50,301 nt of DNA from Methanomicrobia archaeon JdFR-19. GTDB taxonomy: Archaea; Halobacteriota; Methanosarcinia; DSM-18856; Methermicoccaceae. Positions 4,559 through 40,891 of the stretch are shown piece after piece. The position numbers were made by a program, and so were the translations under genes. The notes beneath the pieces are model-generated. The model was not told the DNA's origin. It did not search any database and saw only the letters and a list, made by a program, of their open reading frames with translations. How positions within the stretch are numbered: the first letter of the stretch is position 1; the number at the start of each line of letters is the position of its first letter. The stretch spans positions 1 to 50,301 of the forward strand of contig MTMG01000014.1 of assembly GCA_002010075.1 (NCBI GenBank), in the 5' to 3' direction.

Positions 4559-5032
4559 TCATAGCCTCTTAGTTGTTAGCGGTGTTCCACATATTGGACA
4601 GACTCTCTCGTTATTCTTTATCACTATCTTCCTCTTACATCCTGGACATCTGTAAACCCAGTCTCTTCTCTCTCTCACACTTCTCAATACGGGCATGAAC
4701 TTTATTCCCATTTTAAGACACATGTTCTGCAAGTCAAAGTCATCACTCACTAGCACACCATTTGTCTCAAAAGCTTTTGCAAGCAGACTCATATCTGCCT
4801 CAGACAATGCCACATCATCTCCATATTCGTTCGCCCTATCTCTTACATATTCAATCGCATCCTTTGACACGGGCAGAACTTTCAGCCCTTTACCTTTTGC
4901 AAGCTCAAAAAAACATCTTGCAGTTGGACTCTTTATTTCTCTCTCTACCTCAGGTGTCGTGATGAGCTCTCCTCTAAGCTATTCAACAAAACCAGTTATG
5001 AAGACAACAGCATCACACACATATATGGTCAT
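4559..5032 (-). CDS. nob1: rRNA maturation endonuclease Nob1 with in-frame TAG at codon 18
   Basis: PIN-domain endonuclease with a C-terminal zinc ribbon that cleaves the 3' end of pre-16S rRNA. The ATG at 5032 overlaps the purC stop codon (ATGA). The frame reads YVCDAVVFITGFVE, then TAG at 4981-4979, then LRGELITTPEVE and the rest of the PIN domain (acidic SEAD, SDDFDLQN), ending with a zinc ribbon (CPGC...CPIC). Under the standard code only the stretch from 4870 down would look like a gene and the catalytic N-terminal Asp strand would be lost. With TAG read as an amino acid the protein is 157 aa, the usual archaeal Nob1 size. Last gene of a ribosome-biogenesis operon. Confidence 0.9.
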
Positions 5033-8180: not shown

Positions 8181-8482
8181 TATTCTCGCCATGTGTATCC
8201 ACATTTTGTGCATCTGAAGAACCTTACCTCGCTCTCATCCGCAGCTCTTAGTTGTCTCATCCACCAGTATGCGACATCATTTCCACACTCTGGACAGTAA
8301 GCCTTTGTTGTTGGAAGTCCAGCTCCCTCCTCCTCAACTACTGCAATCTCCTTTTCTTTCATGTCTTTCTTACTAATAAAACTAATTCCTTCTCCTTCTT
8401 CCTCATATCCACATTTCCTACATCTCAGAATTCCTTTACGTGGAATCATGATGCTTTTACATTTGGGACAGAACTTTATCAT
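8174..8482 (-). CDS. tfs: transcription factor S (TFS, RNA cleavage stimulating factor)
   Basis: Archaeal TFIIS-like protein that rescues backtracked RNA polymerase. It has an N-terminal zinc ribbon (FCPKCKSIM...CRKCGY) and a C-terminal zinc ribbon (YCPECGND...[15 protein letters not shown]). The acidic DE pair normally at the tip of the C-terminal hairpin appears as AADESEVRFF. About 102 aa. The start MIKFCPKC at 8482 is chosen; two upstream ATGs (8494, 8491) exist. The 5' end overlaps the extended truD frame. Ends in TGA. Confidence 0.95.
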   Translation of the reverse strand: MIKFCPKCKSIMIPRKGILRCRKCGYEEEGEGISFISKKDMKEKEIAVVEEEGAGLPTTKAYCPECGNDVAYWWMRQLRAADESEVRFFRCTKCGYTWREYD

Positions 8483-9827
8483 CAGAAGCATCATTCGAAG
8501 TAAAGGATTTTAAGCTTTCGAAGTCTTCTGGAGGAACCTTCATATACTCTCTCAAGAGCGATGTTGCATAACATCCCCTGAAAAGTACGAATTCAAACAA
8601 AACTGACCTGTTTTTTGTATCAGATTTATCCTCTACTTCAAAATTAATCTCCTAATCAATTGTTATACATCTCAGAGTTCCTTTTGACGATAGTTCTGAT
8701 AGTTCCCCTTTGAGTTTGAAGTCTTCTGGTTTTACTTCCTCCTCCTCCAATATATTTCTGGCATACTGCGGAAGTGAGTTTGTTTTGTATCCTATTACGG
8801 GAAGAGCAACATACCCTCTCCCCACATTTATAAGCCTCTTCAACGATGAGATATTGTCATCTCTTACAAGTTCATACATCTTCTCATAAGGTACTCCATT
8901 CTTTGTAAATACTACATACTCCCCTGGAATTGGTTCATTCAGAGGAATCCCTTCCAGAATTCTTTCAGACAATATGCGGTTGAAGAGATAGGACTGATAA
9001 CCATGGATGAAGAGCTTCTGGAGATTTATAGGAAGTGCTCTGAAGGCTTTTGTATAACTACCTTCCGAGACTATGACGCTCAACATGGTTCTTTCGTATC
9101 TCAGATGGCGTGGAAATCTTTTTAGAATCTCTCCAAGCCCAGACTCATGTTCGCCTCTGAGATATCTTTCCCACAATTCCCTCCTCTCGTTCTTTACTCT
9201 CTCTCCTTCAAATGGCATGGCTATGTAGCTCATAACAGCGTCTTCCACGTCTCCTTTCAGTAGAGCTTTCCCCACTCGGTGGGTGATTGGACGGACAGAA
9301 CCAAATCTCTGGAATCCATAGAAATTCGGTGCCCCCCCAAAATCGTCCAGCTCATTCTTTATCCTGAGTATCCTTTCTTCACATTCTTTCTGTCCAATTA
9401 CAATGTCTCTAATTCTTATAAGGAATTTATTCCCTTTGAGATCACCTATTCCGATTCTTCTATTTGATTTTCCCACATATCTTATATTAACTCCTTTTAA
9501 ATTGATTTTTTCAATCTCTTTCCATTCCACTCCCCTTATACTTATTTTCTGGATTGTTTTTGCTTTTTTATCTTTTATCCCCGCAACCCCAAATCGCCTC
9601 TGACTAACTCTCAATCTCCTTGCAAGCTCTTTTATCAGCTGGTTTGTGTCCCAGTTCACCTTCTCAATCTCCACAATTAAATGCTCTCCATCGTCCCCAA
9701 TCTTCACTTCATCCGAGATTTCAATGACCATAAAGTCATCTGGGCTTACCTTGATTCTACCTCCGATTCCATCGGTTTTTGACACATAAGCAAGTATGCC
9801 AATTTCTCTCTCAACTTCGCTCAACAT
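8457..9827 (-). CDS. truD: tRNA pseudouridine synthase TruD with in-frame TAG at codon 392
   Basis: Pseudouridylates position 13 of tRNAs. Catalytic region RRFGVAGIKDKKAKT with the conserved Asp; further motifs NFYGFQRFGSVRP and HGYQSYLFNR. The frame reads LRCITID, then TAG (8654-8652), then continues with FEFVLFRGCYATSLLREYMK. This is the conserved C-terminal strand and helix of TruD (GxYATxLLRE), so the true end is TAA at 8457. The read-through protein is 456 aa. Stopping at TAG would remove a core element of the catalytic domain. Start MLSEVERE at 9827 is preferred over 9863. First gene of the operon running to nob1; it overlaps tfs by about 26 nt. Confidence 0.92.
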
Positions 9828-9864
9828 GCACACAAATATATTTTTATTAGGTGTATAAAGCATG

Positions 9865-11034
9865 ATGTTTTATGATGTGGCTATTGTTGGTGCAGGCCCC
9901 GCTGGTACGATGACAGCAAAGCACTTAGCTCTTCGAGGTTTATCCACAGTGATTTTGGAGGAACATAAGGCAATTGGTTTTCCCGTACAATGTGCTGGTC
10001 TCCTTGGGAAAAAAGCTTTAAGCTCATGTGAGGTGTCTGAGCGATGTGTTTTGAAAAAAATAACGGGAGCAAACATATTTGGTCCAGAAGGGGACAAATT
10101 AAGCATAGGTGGGGGGAATGTAAGGGCTTATGTGGTGGATAGGAGAGTTCTCGATACAGAAATGGCAAAGAATGCGATAGAAGCTGGCTCAGACATACTT
10201 CTGAATTTCCATGTTTCATAGATCAAAAAACATGATGACCACTTTGCAATCCATGGCACTCGGGAAAATGTGGGGGCAAAGATGATTGTGCTTGCAGAAG
10301 GTGTTTGTGGCAGGATTGCAAGGATGTTTGGGGTGGGGGGATTCGAAAAGGTCATAAGTTGTGCACAAATTGAAACGACTTACGATTTTTTGGATGAGGA
10401 TTTTGTTGAAGTTTTTCTTGGAAGTTGGTCTCCTGGTTTCTTTGCATGGGCAGTCCCTCTTGGAGATGATTTAGGGAGGGTGGGATTGGGTGTAAATCCA
10501 GAACTTTCGGCTAGTCATCCCGCTGATCATCTTCAGAATTTCTTATCCAACCATCCAGCACTCAATGGAAGATACAAGGAAAATGTTATGAGTCTCACTA
10601 TTGGTGCAATACCGATTGGTCTGAAGGGGAGGAGTTATGCAGATGGAGTGGTTGCTGTCGGAGATGCGGTTGCACAGGTAAAGCCAATCTCGGGAGGGGG
10701 GGTTTATCTGGGTACTTTGTGTGGAAGGATTGCTGCACAGACGATAGCAGAAGCTTTTGAGAATGGAGATACATCCGCCAAAAGATTATCTTCTTACGAG
10801 AGGGCTTGGAAAAAGGAGATTGGTAGGGAACTGAAATTTGGGATGAAGATTCATAACTGGATATTCACCATGAAAGACGAAAAAATTTCAGAAATATTGA
10901 AACTCTTGAATGATGAGAAGATATTGAATGTTGTGAATACTTATGGAGATATAGACTCGCCGTTATCGCTTGCCAAAAAACTCTTGAAAGAGCTGGATTT
11001 CAACATCCTCAGAATGATTAAGTTCCTCATCTGA
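9865..11034 (+). CDS. geranylgeranyl reductase family flavoprotein with in-frame TAG at codon 119
   Basis: FAD-dependent reductase that saturates the geranylgeranyl chains of archaeal membrane lipids. N-terminal Rossmann motif VAIVGAGPAGTMTA, FPVQCAGLLG (the substrate-side Cys motif), and the second FAD site GVVAVGDAVAQVKPISGGGV. TAG at 10219-10221 falls between LLNFHVS and IKKHDDHF; the same frame continues with VLAEGVCGRIAR and the rest of the enzyme to TGA. Full length 389 aa is normal for the family. Under the standard code it would be annotated as two fragments (ending 10221; restarting 10270). It may equally be a paralogue acting on another prenyl substrate. Convergent with nadC. Confidence 0.92.
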
Positions 11035-18474: not shown

Positions 18475-19815
18475 ATGAAATGTGTAATGACGGTTGCAGG
18501 TTCTGATTCTGGGGGTGGTGCGGGTATACAAGCTGACTTGAAAACGTTTGGCACTCTTGGAGTCCATGGTGTGAGTGTTGTAACTGCCATCACCTCACAG
18601 AACACGTTGGGCGTCCGTTCAATACATATCGTACCCGTTGATGAAATCGAGTCTCAGTTTGAAGCAATCTTCGAAGACTTCAATGTTGAGTGGTGTAAAA
18701 CAGGCATGCTTCCAAATGAGGAGACTATAAAGCTTGTTTGTGAAATGCAGAAAAAGTATGGGTTATCTCTTGTTGTTGACCCAGTTGTGTATGCAGAAAG
18801 TGGGGCGAAATTGACCAAATCAGCTGATGCATTGTGGAGGGTCCTGCAGAGGTGTGTGGTTGCGACTCCAAACAAGATGGAGGCAGAGCTACTTTCAGGA
18901 GTCAGAATAGAATGCGAAGATGATGTTATTGAGGCAGGAGAGAGGATTGTTAAAGGGGGGTGTTCTGCTGTTGTGATAACGGGCGGTCATCTGGATGGCT
19001 CTGATTACTTGATTACGTCCGATGGAGTTGAGGTGATAAGAGGGAAGTTGGTGAGAGGAGGGACACACGGTGCTGGTTGTACTTTCTCCGCAGCCCTCAC
19101 ATCTTACTTGTCGAGGGGATTTGACCTTCTGGAATCATGCAAACTGGCAAAGGAATTTACAAAATCTGCAATAATACACAGTACGCCTGTTGGAAGAGGT
19201 TCACATCCTGTTGACCAACTTCACGAGACAAGAGAATACTCAGAACGTTTTAAAGTCCTTTTAAATGTCAGGAAAGCGGTTGCCCTCCTTGTTAGCACCC
19301 CCGAATTTTCCAGGGTCATACCTGAGGTTGGCACAAATGTTGGTATGGGTATAATGGGAGCAAAAAACGAGGAGGATGTTGCTGCCGTGAGCGGAAGGAT
19401 TGTTCGTACTCTCTGTACGACATCCCCCACCCAGTAGCCAAAGGCATGTGGTGATGTAGAGTTTGGGGCAAGTGGGCATGTTGCAAGAATAATACTCACC
19501 GCTCATTCCATGTTTCCACACATAAGAGCTGCCATTAATATGAGGTATGGAGAGGATGTTATCAGGGCATGTGAGATGCTGGGTTTGAGGATAGGCAGTT
19601 TTTCGAGAGATGAAGAGCCGGAAGGCATGTCCACAATGGAGTGGGGAATTTCGACAGTGCTATCTAAGGGAGAAGTCGATGTGATATACGACAAAGGGAG
19701 CATAGGCAAAGAACCCATGGTCAGGTTGATAGGAAAGAATGCAGTTGAGGTTGCAGAGAGAGCTGTTGAGATTGCAAGATTTATAAGTTAGGAATTGGAT
19801 AGAAATAATGGGTGA
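18475..19815 (+). CDS. thiDN: bifunctional HMP kinase/thiamine-phosphate synthase ThiDN with in-frame TAG at codon 321
   Basis: N-terminal ThiD phosphorylates hydroxymethylpyrimidine ([45 protein letters not shown]). The C-terminal ThiN domain condenses HMP-PP with the thiazole phosphate. TAG at 19435-19437 lies inside ThiN, between [10 protein letters not shown] and [19 protein letters not shown], the conserved ThiN segment. The frame then runs on through [19 protein letters not shown] second TAG at 19789-19791 comes after EIARFIS; TGA follows at 19813-19815. If TAG is sense the protein is 446 aa; if the second TAG is a genuine stop the gene ends at 19791. A standard annotation would give ThiD plus a detached ThiN fragment. 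Confidence 0.9.
19780..19787 (+). promoter_or_regulatory. TATA box of the RNase P RNA gene
   Basis: TTTATAAG at 19780-19787, centred about 26 nt before the predicted 5' end of the RNase P RNA (19810). It lies inside the last sense codons of thiDN. Confidence 0.55.
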
Positions 19816-26040: not shown

Positions 26041-27753
26041 TCATAACGTGTCTATCTTGGCGGGAGGTAATGTGATGATAATCCTTGTTCCCTCTCCCTC
26101 TTCCGAATGTATCAATATGCTACCACCCAGAGACCTCACGATGCCATACGAAACAGATAAACCAAGTCCGGTACCTTCCCCAACCGGCTTTGTTGTGAAG
26201 AATGGCTCAAACACATGCGGGAGCACATCTTTTGGTATTCCTATCCCATTGTCCTCAATCTCGATAACAACCATGCCATCCTTTTCGTAAGTGTGTATCT
26301 TTATTACTTTGTTCTATGTCTCTTTCTGGTTCAGTGCCCATATGGAGTTCGATATTATGTTCAGGAGGATTTGCATGATCTTCTCCTCTTCACCCAGCAC
26401 ACTGCTCTTGGCATCGAGTCTTTTTTCCACTTTTATTGTTCTCAGTTCATGGGTGAGGATCGTGAGTGTCTTTTCAATGATATCGTTGATATTCAGCTCA
26501 TAAAATTCTCCTCCTCCCTTTCTTGAGAAGTCGAGAAGGTCTGAGACAATCTTCTTGATCCTCATTCCAGCCTCTTCGATCTCACAGATCATTTCATAGT
26601 GCTCGCTATCAGATGGCAGTTCGTCCTTCAGTATCCAAGCATAGTTCAGTATTACCGTGAGCGGGTTATTAATTTCGTGTGCAACTCCCCCAGCCAACTG
26701 TCCAATTGATATGAGTCTCTCTGCATGGGCGAGCTGTGCCTCGAGTTTTTTCCTCTCTTCTTCAAGCTCTTTGATACGGGTGATATCTAAGATAACCCCA
26801 TCAACATGTTCGTTAATTTTTCTCCCCCGTTCTACAACGTACTTCCCATTGGCAATTCTGTACTCGGTTCTGTAAGATTCCCCTTTCAGTATATCTTTCA
26901 TCACATTCTCTTTATCTTCGGGGTGAATGAGGGCAAGATACGATTTTCCTATGAGTTCTGATGGCTCCAGTCCGAATAAGTTCTTGCTCTCATCACTCAT
27001 GTACTCGATTGTCCATTTGTCATCCAGAAATCTTCTGAAAACAACACCCGGAATGTTTTGAACAAGCGTCTCAAATCTCTCCTTAGCTTTTTTAATTTCT
27101 TCCTCTGACTTTAAACGTTCTGTTATATCAACAAGGGTTCCGAGGACCACCTTCTTTCCTTTGTATGTGGCTGATGTACCGAAAGCCTCAACCCATCTCA
27201 CAGAGCCATCCTTTTTTATGATCCTGAATCTCGAAGGAGGTAGATCCACTCTCCCCTTCAGCCTATCTCTTATTCGACTTTCAACAATTTTTCTGTCTTC
27301 TGGATGTATTATATCGAATGTATTTCTTCCGACCAGCTCATCTCTCTCGTATCCAAAAACTCTCGAAAACGTTGGATTCACATATATCAGTGTTCCGTTT
27401 TCATCTATCATAAACACGCCAGCTATTGCATTCTCGGTTAGAGTTCTGAACAGCTCCTCTCTCTCTGCTAGAGCCTCTTCAGCGTCTTTGAAGTATTTGA
27501 GCTCGTTCAGGATTACATCACACTCTTTTATCAGAGCAAGTGCGAATATCATCATCCCCGCGCCCATCAGTATGCTTTCTGAAAGTTGGAGAATTATGTT
27601 GTCTGATATCTCACTGACCACATTCACAAGTAAGCCGAGGGAAAACAGACCCCACCCGACGTTGACAAGGAATATTCTAAGTTTGCTGAGAAAGAAAAAC
27701 GCAACTATTGAGGCACAGAATATTGCTATGTTGATTGTGATGAGCATAGACAT
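26041..27753 (-). CDS. membrane PAS-PAS histidine kinase with in-frame TAG at codon 480
   Basis: Sensor kinase: about three N-terminal transmembrane helices, two PAS domains (FRTLTENAIAGVFMI...; FETLVQNIPGVVF...), a short coiled linker, a HisKA box with phospho-acceptor GGVAHEINNPL, then the ATPase domain. The N-box LNIISNSIWAL is followed by NQKET and TAG (26316-26314); the frame continues NKVIKIHTYEKDG into the G1/F/G2 boxes (EDNGIGIP, FFTTKPVGEGTGLGL) to TGA. Without TAG read-through the kinase loses its ATP-lid half. 570 aa. Start ATG 27753 fits a leaderless transcript from a TATA box just upstream. No response regulator is adjacent; the signal is unknown. Confidence 0.9.
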
Positions 27754-27828
27754 TATAGCTACAATGTTGCACAATATAAAAATGTTTATTCATAATACTT
27801 TAATAAGAAGAATGCAAAGGAGGGAGCA

Positions 27829-29548: not shown

Positions 29549-30485
29549 TACCAGAAGTCTCGCTCTCAGAGTCGAGAGAGAGAAAGGCGAGAAAGTAAGA
29601 CGTTGTCTTTTAGAGTAGGGACTTCTTAAAAAAGATTTGAAACCCTTTTCAGATGAAAAATTTGTTTATTTCCCTGTAAAAGATAATGCAAAGGATGTTA
29701 TGGAAGGAGATTTTGTTTGGGAGAGTTTTCAACCCATAAAAAAGCGAAAAACCCACTTAGACATTATTGGCAGAATAAGTTTTGACATTGTGGGCGATAT
29801 AGCTCTTGTTGACCTCAAGGCTATCAGTGGGTTGGATAGGAAAGAGGTGGCAGAGACACTTCTCAGCACGCTTCCTATCAGGTCAGTTTTTGGTGTTGGG
29901 GGAGTCAGTGGGGAGTTCAGGGTTGCCCAACTCGTTCATTTGGGGGGAAGCAGAAACACACTGACTCTCCACAAAGAAAATAAATGTGTTTTCGAGCTTG
30001 ATGTAGCCAGAGTTTACTTCAATCCGAGACTTGCAACAGAAAGAGCAAGGGTCGAGAGAAGAATCTCCCAAGAGAGGGCAAAGGTAATTCTTGATATGTT
30101 TGCTGGCGCAGGTCCATTTTCGATACTAATCGCAAAGATGGACAAAACTAGGGTTGTTCATGCGGTAGAAAAGAATCCAGTTGCATGTCATTTTCTCAGA
30201 AGGAATGTTGAGCTAAATAAAGTGAGTAATGTGATAGTACATGAGGGGGATGTGAGAGATATACTTGCCACCCAGAAAATAGATGCAGATGCAATAATCA
30301 TGAACCTTCCTCACACAGCAATCAACTTCCTCCCTCTTGCGTTGGAGTGTTCGCATCCTGGTACCCTCATATTCTTGTATACGATATCTGCGGATGAGCC
30401 AGACATACCTGGGATGGAAAAGGCGAGGAAGGTGAAATCGTATGCCCCCAATGTTTCCATATGGTGTGTTGAAGTGAGGGCATGA
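29529..30485 (+). CDS. trm5: tRNA (guanine37-N1)-methyltransferase Trm5 family with TAG at codons 3 and 30
   Basis: SAM-dependent methyltransferase that forms m1G37 in tRNA. N-terminal D1 domain SLALRVEREKGEKVRRCLLE, then TAG (29616-29618), then GLLKKDLKPF; D2 substrate domain with RVYFNPRLATERARV; catalytic domain with ILDMFAGAGPFSILIA (SAM motif I) and the active-site NLP in IIMNLPHTA. The only possible in-frame start before the D1 homology is ATG at 29529, whose third codon is also TAG (29535-29537). Without TAG decoding the first start would be a TTG at 29637 that cuts off D1. 318 aa. Could be the Taw22-type variant acting also in wyosine synthesis. Ends in TGA. Confidence 0.88.
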
Positions 30486-38527: not shown

Positions 38528-39313
38528 ATGGTTGCTGATAGACTCGGTGCATCGACTTATTGTTGCATTCTTGAGCCTCTCGAAGTGGCTCTGGGGAAAC
38601 TTGAGAATACTGGATTTTCTCTCGTTGAAATTCTCTCAGATGGCATGCATGACCTTCTAAATGACTGTGAACCATGTTTTAGTTTTGGTATGGAGTATGT
38701 GGTGCACGCTCCGATTGATTTGAACATTGCAAGTGTGAGAGAGCCAATACGCAAAGCATCTGTTGAGGTGTTGAAGGGGGTTGTTGAAGTGGCAAACAGG
38801 ATAGATTCAGATTTATTGGTGATTCATCCTGGACACTACGGATGGCATATCGAGAAGGAGAGAGCATATAGGGCATGTGCTAATTCTGTGATGGAATTGT
38901 CCAGATTCTCAGAAGATTTTGGAGTTAGAATAGCAGTCGAGAATATGACTGACTGGGGGAATTCACTCCTTCGTTCTCCTATGGATGGGTGGGTGATTGG
39001 GAATGCAGGGCTTGCCCTTGATGTTGGACATGCCCATTTGATGCACGAACTTGAGAATTTTCTGGAAGACTCAAGAGTAATTCATCTGCACATTCATGAT
39101 AACGATGGCCAGAGAGATTCTCATGATGCTCTTGGAAGAGGAAATCTGAAACTGGAAGATGTCTTTTCGATGATGTTAGAGAGGAATGTAAGGGGTGTGA
39201 TTGAGGTTAACTCTCTTGATGCTTTGAAAGAAAGTGTTTTGTGGTTGAAAACCCATCAGGTATTGAAATCTCATTTTGATTCTCAATCTTTGCCAAGAAG
39301 TCCAGATTTTTGA
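38528..39313 (+). CDS. sugar phosphate isomerase/epimerase-like TIM-barrel protein
   Basis: Xylose-isomerase-like/endonuclease IV-like TIM barrel with putative metal ligands: VIHPGHYG, IAVENMTD (Glu), LALDVGHAHL (Asp, His), HLHIHDNDGQRDSHDALGRG, and Glu in GVIEVNS. 261 aa. Could be a sugar isomerase/epimerase or an AP endonuclease relative; the HDND...H.ALG.G segment is more like the isomerase group. The start ATG 38528 follows an A/T-rich promoter; a TTG at 38519 also exists. Convergent with the coiled-coil gene by 31 nt. Ends in TGA. Confidence 0.78.
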   Translation: MVADRLGASTYCCILEPLEVALGKLENTGFSLVEILSDGMHDLLNDCEPCFSFGMEYVVHAPIDLNIASVREPIRKASVEVLKGVVEVANRIDSDLLVIHPGHYGWHIEKERAYRACANSVMELSRFSEDFGVRIAVENMTDWGNSLLRSPMDGWVIGNAGLALDVGHAHLMHELENFLEDSRVIHLHIHDNDGQRDSHDALGRGNLKLEDVFSMMLERNVRGVIEVNSLDALKESVLWLKTHQVLKSHFDSQSLPRSPDF

Positions 39314-40137
39314 AGTATCAAAAGTTTTTCAGTATCAAGCTTCTCTCCAGCTATGAAGCGTTTGTATATTTCCTCTGCCTCTTTGAGAAGTGGAGACTTC
39401 TTAACAGTCTTCTTCTTCCTATCCAGTTTTTCTATGAGTATGTCAAATTCTTTTATTTCCTTTGCAAGCCTCAAGCATTTTTTGTGGATGGCATCCGCCT
39501 CATCTTGATATTTCACGAATTGAGCATGAGCATGATCAGCCTCTTTCCTGACCCTGTCAGCCTCACGGAAGAGCAAAACCATTTGGTCATGGTATTTCTG
39601 TGCGGTCTCAATCTCTCCAAGAAACATACGGTGGTATTTGTTTATCTCTTTTTCCAGATTTTCGATGTCAGATAGAATTTTCGAGATGTCAGGGTCACCT
39701 TCAAGCTCCTTTTTACGCTTGATATATTCCTTTCTCAGACTCTCTATTTTTTCTATGAGTTCCTTTTCTTTACTTATTGAAAGAACTTCAGTTTGTTGTT
39801 TGAACTCAAGCATTTCTAACTCTTTTTTAAGTTCTTCCAATGATTTTCCTTCAATACCTTTCTCTCTACCCTTTTTTTCGAGATTTATTTTGAGTTTCTT
39901 CATTTCATTCTTAAATTCGTCTCTTTTTTTCTTATATTCACCAACTAGTACGTTGTGTTTGTCTCTTTCTGCTTTCAGTTGCTGTGCCTTTTCAACCAGC
40001 TCCTTTACCTTTGTGTTGAGCTCGTTTCTTTTGTTAGCCCATTCGCTCGCTTTGGCGTTGAGCTCTGCTCTTCTCTCTCTCAACCTCTCCAATTCCTTTT
40101 GCAGTTCCTCTTTTCTGTCTTTCAGCTCCTGTAACAC
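39283..40137 (-). CDS. COG1340-type coiled-coil protein
   Basis: 284-aa protein almost entirely predicted coiled coil, rich in E, K, L and R heptads (DRKEELQKELERLRERR...; IEKIESLRKEYIKRKKELE...). Matches the widespread archaeal uncharacterised coiled-coil family that often sits next to serB. Function unknown; length and composition suggest a scaffold. The start is a GTG at 40137 overlapping serB by 16 nt. Ends in TGA. Confidence 0.82.
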   Translation of the reverse strand: MLQELKDRKEELQKELERLRERRAELNAKASEWANKRNELNTKVKELVEKAQQLKAERDKHNVLVGEYKKKRDEFKNEMKKLKINLEKKGREKGIEGKSLEELKKELEMLEFKQQTEVLSISKEKELIEKIESLRKEYIKRKKELEGDPDISKILSDIENLEKEINKYHRMFLGEIETAQKYHDQMVLLFREADRVRKEADHAHAQFVKYQDEADAIHKKCLRLAKEIKEFDILIEKLDRKKKTVKKSPLLKEAEEIYKRFIAGEKLDTEKLLILQKSGLLGKD

Positions 40138-40799
40138 CTCTCATCCTCCCGCATCAGCATATCAATGATTTTTATTACCTTCCTTAGGTCTTTTCCTTCT
40201 ACTGTTTCATCTGCATACTTCTTTAGAATTGGCTTTGCATTGAATGCAATTGCAAATCCTCCGTTTCTGAAAAGACAGATATCGTTTGCACCATCTCCTA
40301 CCATTATGCATTCATCGAGTTTGATTCCCTTTTCCTCAAGAAAACTTTTGAGTGCATGGAGTTTTGCTTCTCCATATGTCAGAGGCCCCCTCACTTCCCC
40401 TGTGAGTACTCCATCCTTTACCACAAGTTCATTGGATATCACATGCTCTATGCCAAGACTCTTGGCAACCTAATCCGTGGCAATCGAAAAGCCACACGAA
40501 ACCATCACAACCATCAGATTCTTGCTTTTGAGGTAAGACACCAGCTCATGGGCTCCATCCATATACGGCATCCTTTCCACAGCTTTCTTTGCTCTGTTAA
40601 CAGAGAGCCCTTCGAGCATCTTCACCCTTCTTTTCAGAGCCTCTCTGTAGTCTATCTTCCCTTCCATTGCCATCCTTGTAATCTCTGCAACCTCTTTGCC
40701 AACACCTGCCTCATAGGCTAGCTCGTTGATGGTTTCGGCATCTATCAGTGTAGAGTCCATGTCCAGAACCACCACCCTGAATCTTGCATTCTACTCCAT
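40122..40799 (-). CDS. serB: phosphoserine phosphatase SerB with TAG at codons 3 and 110
   Basis: HAD phosphatase making serine from phosphoserine. Motif I VVVLDMDSTLIDAE (nucleophile Asp), motif II VVMVSCGFS, Lys of motif III in YGEAKLHALKSF, motif IV MVGDGANDICLF. The frame is interrupted only by TAG at 40472-40470, between GFSIATD and VAKSLGIEHVISNEL, exactly in the Rossmann core. ATG at 40799, preceded by GAGGAT at 5 nt spacing, gives ATG-GAG-TAG-AAT-GCA-AGA and continues FRVVVLDMD, so codon 3 is TAG as well. Read through, the protein is 225 aa and complete. A standard annotation would give two broken halves. Ends in TGA. Confidence 0.92.
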
Positions 40800-40891
40800 A
40801 GAAATCCTCTTCAAGAACGGAAACTGCAATCTTTCAGAGCATCAATAAATAAAACCTTTTCGCTTGTGTGGACAATATTTGACTTCAGGTT

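Follow-up and report, generated by a model that had tools for sequence, protein, structure and literature searches.

serB and its in-frame TAG codons

We found that a gene for phosphoserine phosphatase, serB, occupies positions 40122-40799 (minus strand) of the window, the whole stretch of 50,301 nucleotides analyzed here (Methanomicrobia archaeon JdFR-19, contig MTMG01000014.1). The gene has 225 codons, ends in TGA (40124-40122), and contains two in-frame TAG codons. The start codon, ATG (40799-40797), is followed by GAG and then by the first TAG (40793-40791, codon 3). The second TAG (40472-40470) is codon 110. An earlier note on this DNA had placed the first TAG behind a ribosome-binding site, and we confirmed this: the purine-rich sequence AAGAGGA (40805-40811, minus strand) resembles a ribosome-binding site and lies 5 nt before the ATG. 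It is identical in a sister genome of the same genus (Methanosarcinales archaeon B74_G9, contig QMVI01000039; ~89% DNA identity over 8.4 kb). The note's span, 40470-40799, is correct for the part of the gene up to the second TAG but not for the gene as a whole, which extends to 40122. There, the 3' end of serB overlaps by 16 bases a gene for a DUF7121 coiled-coil protein (39283-40137, minus strand).

The frame that spans both TAG codons encodes a recognizable SerB. With TAG read as lysine, the product scored 234.3 bits against TIGR00338 (equivalog cut-off, 144.15) and aligned end to end with the phosphoserine phosphatase of M. jannaschii (4.5e-53). Based on this score and the full-length alignment, the frame is not a chance occurrence. 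The structure nearest to an AlphaFold model of SerB (pLDDT 74, medium confidence) was that of the M. jannaschii enzyme (1F5S). The HAD motifs DMDST, S101, K146 and GDGAND (numbered from the ATG) are all present in the alignment with homologues. As had been noted from the sequence, DMDST and GDGAND are intact, and the second TAG lies after motif II (S101) and before motif III (K146).

Both TAG codons are predicted to specify pyrrolysine. Codon 110 is a position in the helix after motif II and is not a catalytic residue. Arginine occupies it in 26 of the 29 homologues from the class. Codon 3 is in a variable N-terminal tail, with no conserved residue at this site among homologues. The M. jannaschii enzyme (PDB 1F5S), which shares its family and fold with the SerB described here, has lysine where serB has the second TAG. 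In contrast to serB, it has ordinary residues at both positions.

TAG codons and pyrrolysine genes across the genome

We found in-frame TAG codons in other genes of the window. On the plus strand, these are in a geranylgeranyl reductase-like FAD protein (TAG at 10219-10221; gene 9862-11034), in the ThiN domain of ThiD-ThiN (19435-19437; gene 18475-19815, with a second TAG at 19789-19791), and in the Trm5_N domain of a Trm5-type tRNA methyltransferase (29616-29618; gene extending to 30485). On the minus strand, they are in a PIN domain protein (4979-4981; gene 4559-5032), in a TruD domain (8652-8654; gene 8457-9863), and in the HATPase_c domain of a histidine kinase (26314-26316; gene 26041-27774).

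TAG is uncommon at the ends of open reading frames. We examined a 486 kb sample, 38% of the genome. Under translation table 11, 443 open reading frames of at least 120 amino acids ended in TGA (273), TAA (129), or TAG (41). Approximately 9% therefore ended in TAG, compared to about 30% expected from base composition alone. The majority of the 41 TAG-ended frames ran on in frame for at least 20 codons. An in-frame extension of at least 40 coding-like codons followed 11/41 of the TAG-ended frames and 24/402 of those ended by TAA or TGA (p ~1e-4), although this comparison is weak alone because in-frame neighboring genes yield positives for TAA and TGA too.

When TAG was treated as a sense codon, 79 of the 427 gene models in the same sample held 102 TAG codons. 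The 79 is an upper estimate, since some starts were probably placed too far upstream, with a TAG only near the N-terminus. We scanned 38 TAG-containing models with Pfam and serB with NCBIfam. In 30 of these 39 genes a TAG was within a recognized domain; for an RNA polymerase subunit and a PLP decarboxylase-like protein, both counted among the 30, it was at the domain edge. The genes with a TAG inside a domain include TruD, ThiD-ThiN, Trm5, ribonucleotide reductase, adenylosuccinate synthetase, NadC, RNase HII, an XPD-like helicase, HisB, and aldehyde dehydrogenase. Separately, a gene whose product has PKD and dockerin domains (L008 10241-12091, minus strand) contains four in-frame TAG codons.

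Four further TAG sites could be aligned to solved structures, where the homologous residues were Asp, Thr, His, and Val. Because the residues vary (Arg or Lys in SerB; Asp, Thr, His, and Val elsewhere), TAG is not taking the place of any one standard residue. Judged from these alignments, the variation at the five sites would fit what is expected of drift.

The genome encodes machinery for pyrrolysine. A tRNA-Pyl with a CUA anticodon, a 5-base D loop, and a 6-bp anticodon stem is at L008 9000-9070. It is in a row (L008 9000-10226; G000:C6) with a separate pylSn-like gene (92 amino acids, assigned by eye) and, downstream of that, pylSc (298 bits; cut-off, 178). Separate PylSn and PylSc proteins are known in few archaea, including JdFR-19, a Methanosarcinaceae relative (PMC9499178). 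pylD (222 bits; cut-off, 150) is on a different contig from pylS (L068, C18). It is not in a pylBCD operon; its neighbors, assigned by eye, are a nicotinamide-nucleotide adenylyltransferase-like gene and a thermosome-like gene. The methylamine methyltransferase genes mttB, mtmB, and mtbB (the last identified by sequence) each have an in-frame TAG and serve as internal positive controls for pyrrolysine decoding. Two other MtmB-family proteins lack pyrrolysine: at the position where it is predicted in the MtmB paralogue with a TAG, they have Phe (L120 14667-15995, C9) and Met (L072, C14).

How the TAG codons are read

We think it very probable that serB is intact and functional with its TAG codons translated as pyrrolysine, that TAG is a near-regular sense codon throughout the genome, and that the serB sites came about mostly by neutral drift. 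We infer the incorporation of pyrrolysine, its efficiency, and the activity of the product, that is, hydrolysis of phosphoserine by a pyrrolysine-containing protein. The earlier note had implied that serB functions by read-through of TAG and is broken by standard annotation, and our results support this. Pyrrolysine and the genome-wide scale were absent from that note, and in their light serB is an ordinary case, one of many.

A rather unlikely but far from negligible alternative is that TAG is decoded ambiguously, with insertion of pyrrolysine competing with termination by aRF1. Part of the SerB would then be produced as a fragment of two or 109 residues, and the yield of full-length protein would follow the supply of pyrrolysine, a form of methylamine-dependent control. 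The aRF1 gene (L077 1492-2736) is intact, and even with TAG used so heavily as sense it still has the canonical NIKS and YxCxxxF motifs, so some termination at UAG is possible. Ambiguous decoding also matches the accepted model for organisms that use pyrrolysine, in which insertion and termination compete (PMC9499178). However, TAG seldom serves as a terminator and often occurs within essential genes, where frequent termination would be costly. We also looked for an altered release factor and found both aRF1 motifs unchanged.

It is very improbable that another suppressor tRNA reads TAG as a standard amino acid such as Gln or Lys. Phages offer a precedent, with TAG reassigned to Gln (PMC9523058). 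However, no other tRNA with a CUA anticodon was found among 45 tRNA matches, leaving tRNA-Pyl as the sole candidate decoder of TAG that we found. The genome also encodes PylS, PylD, and methylamine methyltransferases with in-frame TAG. Among the other tRNA genes, two for tRNA-Ser have short introns in the anticodon loop (L052, C1:99314-99420; L119, C2:21977-22078).

Under the standard code the serB frame is broken twice, as would be seen if serB were a pseudogene or if the TAG codons were errors of assembly or sequencing. We found that the sister genome, which is independent, has TAG at both of the same codons; hence the TAG codons are not sequencing errors. The two serB genes differ at 16 codons, 15 synonymously and one non-synonymously. 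All five changes downstream of the second TAG are synonymous, and purifying selection is thus shown on both sides of that codon. The order serB-DUF7121, with the DUF7121 gene directly downstream, is kept in 28/28 relatives from the class that were examined. We looked for a second serB, which would have counted against a functional gene here, and found none in the assembly (1.29 Mb in 27 contigs, 89.75% complete; class Methanosarcinia, from an order with two species among the genomes compared), in which serB is single-copy. The HAD proteins considered as a possible second SerB were only of P-type-ATPase size or like phosphoglycolate phosphatase. serA is intact in the same genome. Based on the shared TAG codons, the silent changes, the conserved gene order, the lack of a second serB in the assembly, and the intact serA, a pseudogene or assembly error is very unlikely, indeed scarcely credible, and many single-copy essential genes have the same pattern of TAG codons.

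It is just as hard to credit that SerB is made as separate pieces that reassemble: mechanically called open reading frames do start at GTG 40775 and GTG 40442, but inspection of the sequence revealed no ribosome-binding site before either GTG, the second TAG is within a helix in the model, and no split serB was seen in the 28 relatives examined from the class.

We return to translation of the TAG codons as pyrrolysine. tRNA-Pyl(CUA) would decode UAG in the serB mRNA after being charged by PylSn and PylSc, which are separate proteins here. Decoding of UAG by Pyl-tRNA requires no special signal (PMC9499178). Codon drift that was mostly neutral probably produced the two TAG sites, at positions where a lysine-like residue is tolerated, and translation of serB would now depend on the pyrrolysine machinery.

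Consequences and comparison with known systems

Standard annotation would truncate serB and many other genes in this genome, giving false auxotrophies and false pseudogenes. If pyrrolysine is inserted, then serine synthesis would need pyrrolysine, and basic growth would be tied to an amino acid usually linked to methylamine use only. With our results, a lineage of the Methanosarcinia joins those in which TAG is recoded. It provides a test case for the spread of codon capture by drift and is striking both for annotation and for codon-capture theory. It is also plausible, although we put this forward tentatively and somewhat doubtfully, that TAG became an obligatory sense codon for pyrrolysine in this order-level lineage of Methanosarcinia, both in core metabolism and in information processing, that this happened independently of other archaea with such a code, and that, as a result, growth there has come to require a supply of pyrrolysine even without methylamines.

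An archaeal "Pyl code", in which TAG is a general codon for pyrrolysine, has reportedly been described by Kivenson et al. (in Science, 2025). As proposed for the genome analyzed here, the archaeon is said to be a methylotroph in which TAG specifies pyrrolysine in a large number of ordinary genes; its lineage is apparently different from this order of Methanosarcinia.

Sets of TAG-containing genes have been reported in two Methanomassiliicoccales. Ca. Methanomethylophilus alvus has 16 putative pyrrolysine proteins besides the methyltransferases (PMC4153887), and ISO4-H5 has 46 TAG-containing genes (PMC5011839). Both resemble the present genome in having in-frame TAG codons in housekeeping genes, and in M. 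alvus, as here, TAG is depleted as a stop. In contrast to both, the present genome is that of a member of the Methanosarcinia with separate PylSn and PylSc, and 38% of it yielded at least 28 domain-spanning cases besides serB and MttB.

Neutral evolution has been invoked before. It was suggested for the TAG-containing genes of Ca. M. alvus (PMC4153887) and, according to the citation in that paper, for pyrrolysine in the tRNA-His guanylyltransferase of Methanosarcina (PNAS 2009, cited in PMC4153887). Our pattern fits neutral drift into a usable codon, since no single standard residue is replaced. As far as that citation describes it, the guanylyltransferase is likewise a pyrrolysine protein other than a methylamine methyltransferase with a neutral explanation, but it is one protein, whereas here there are many, including one (SerB) with two sites. 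Genome-wide use of pyrrolysine is itself reportedly already known; what is new is the heavy use of TAG as a sense codon in a lineage of the Methanosarcinia.
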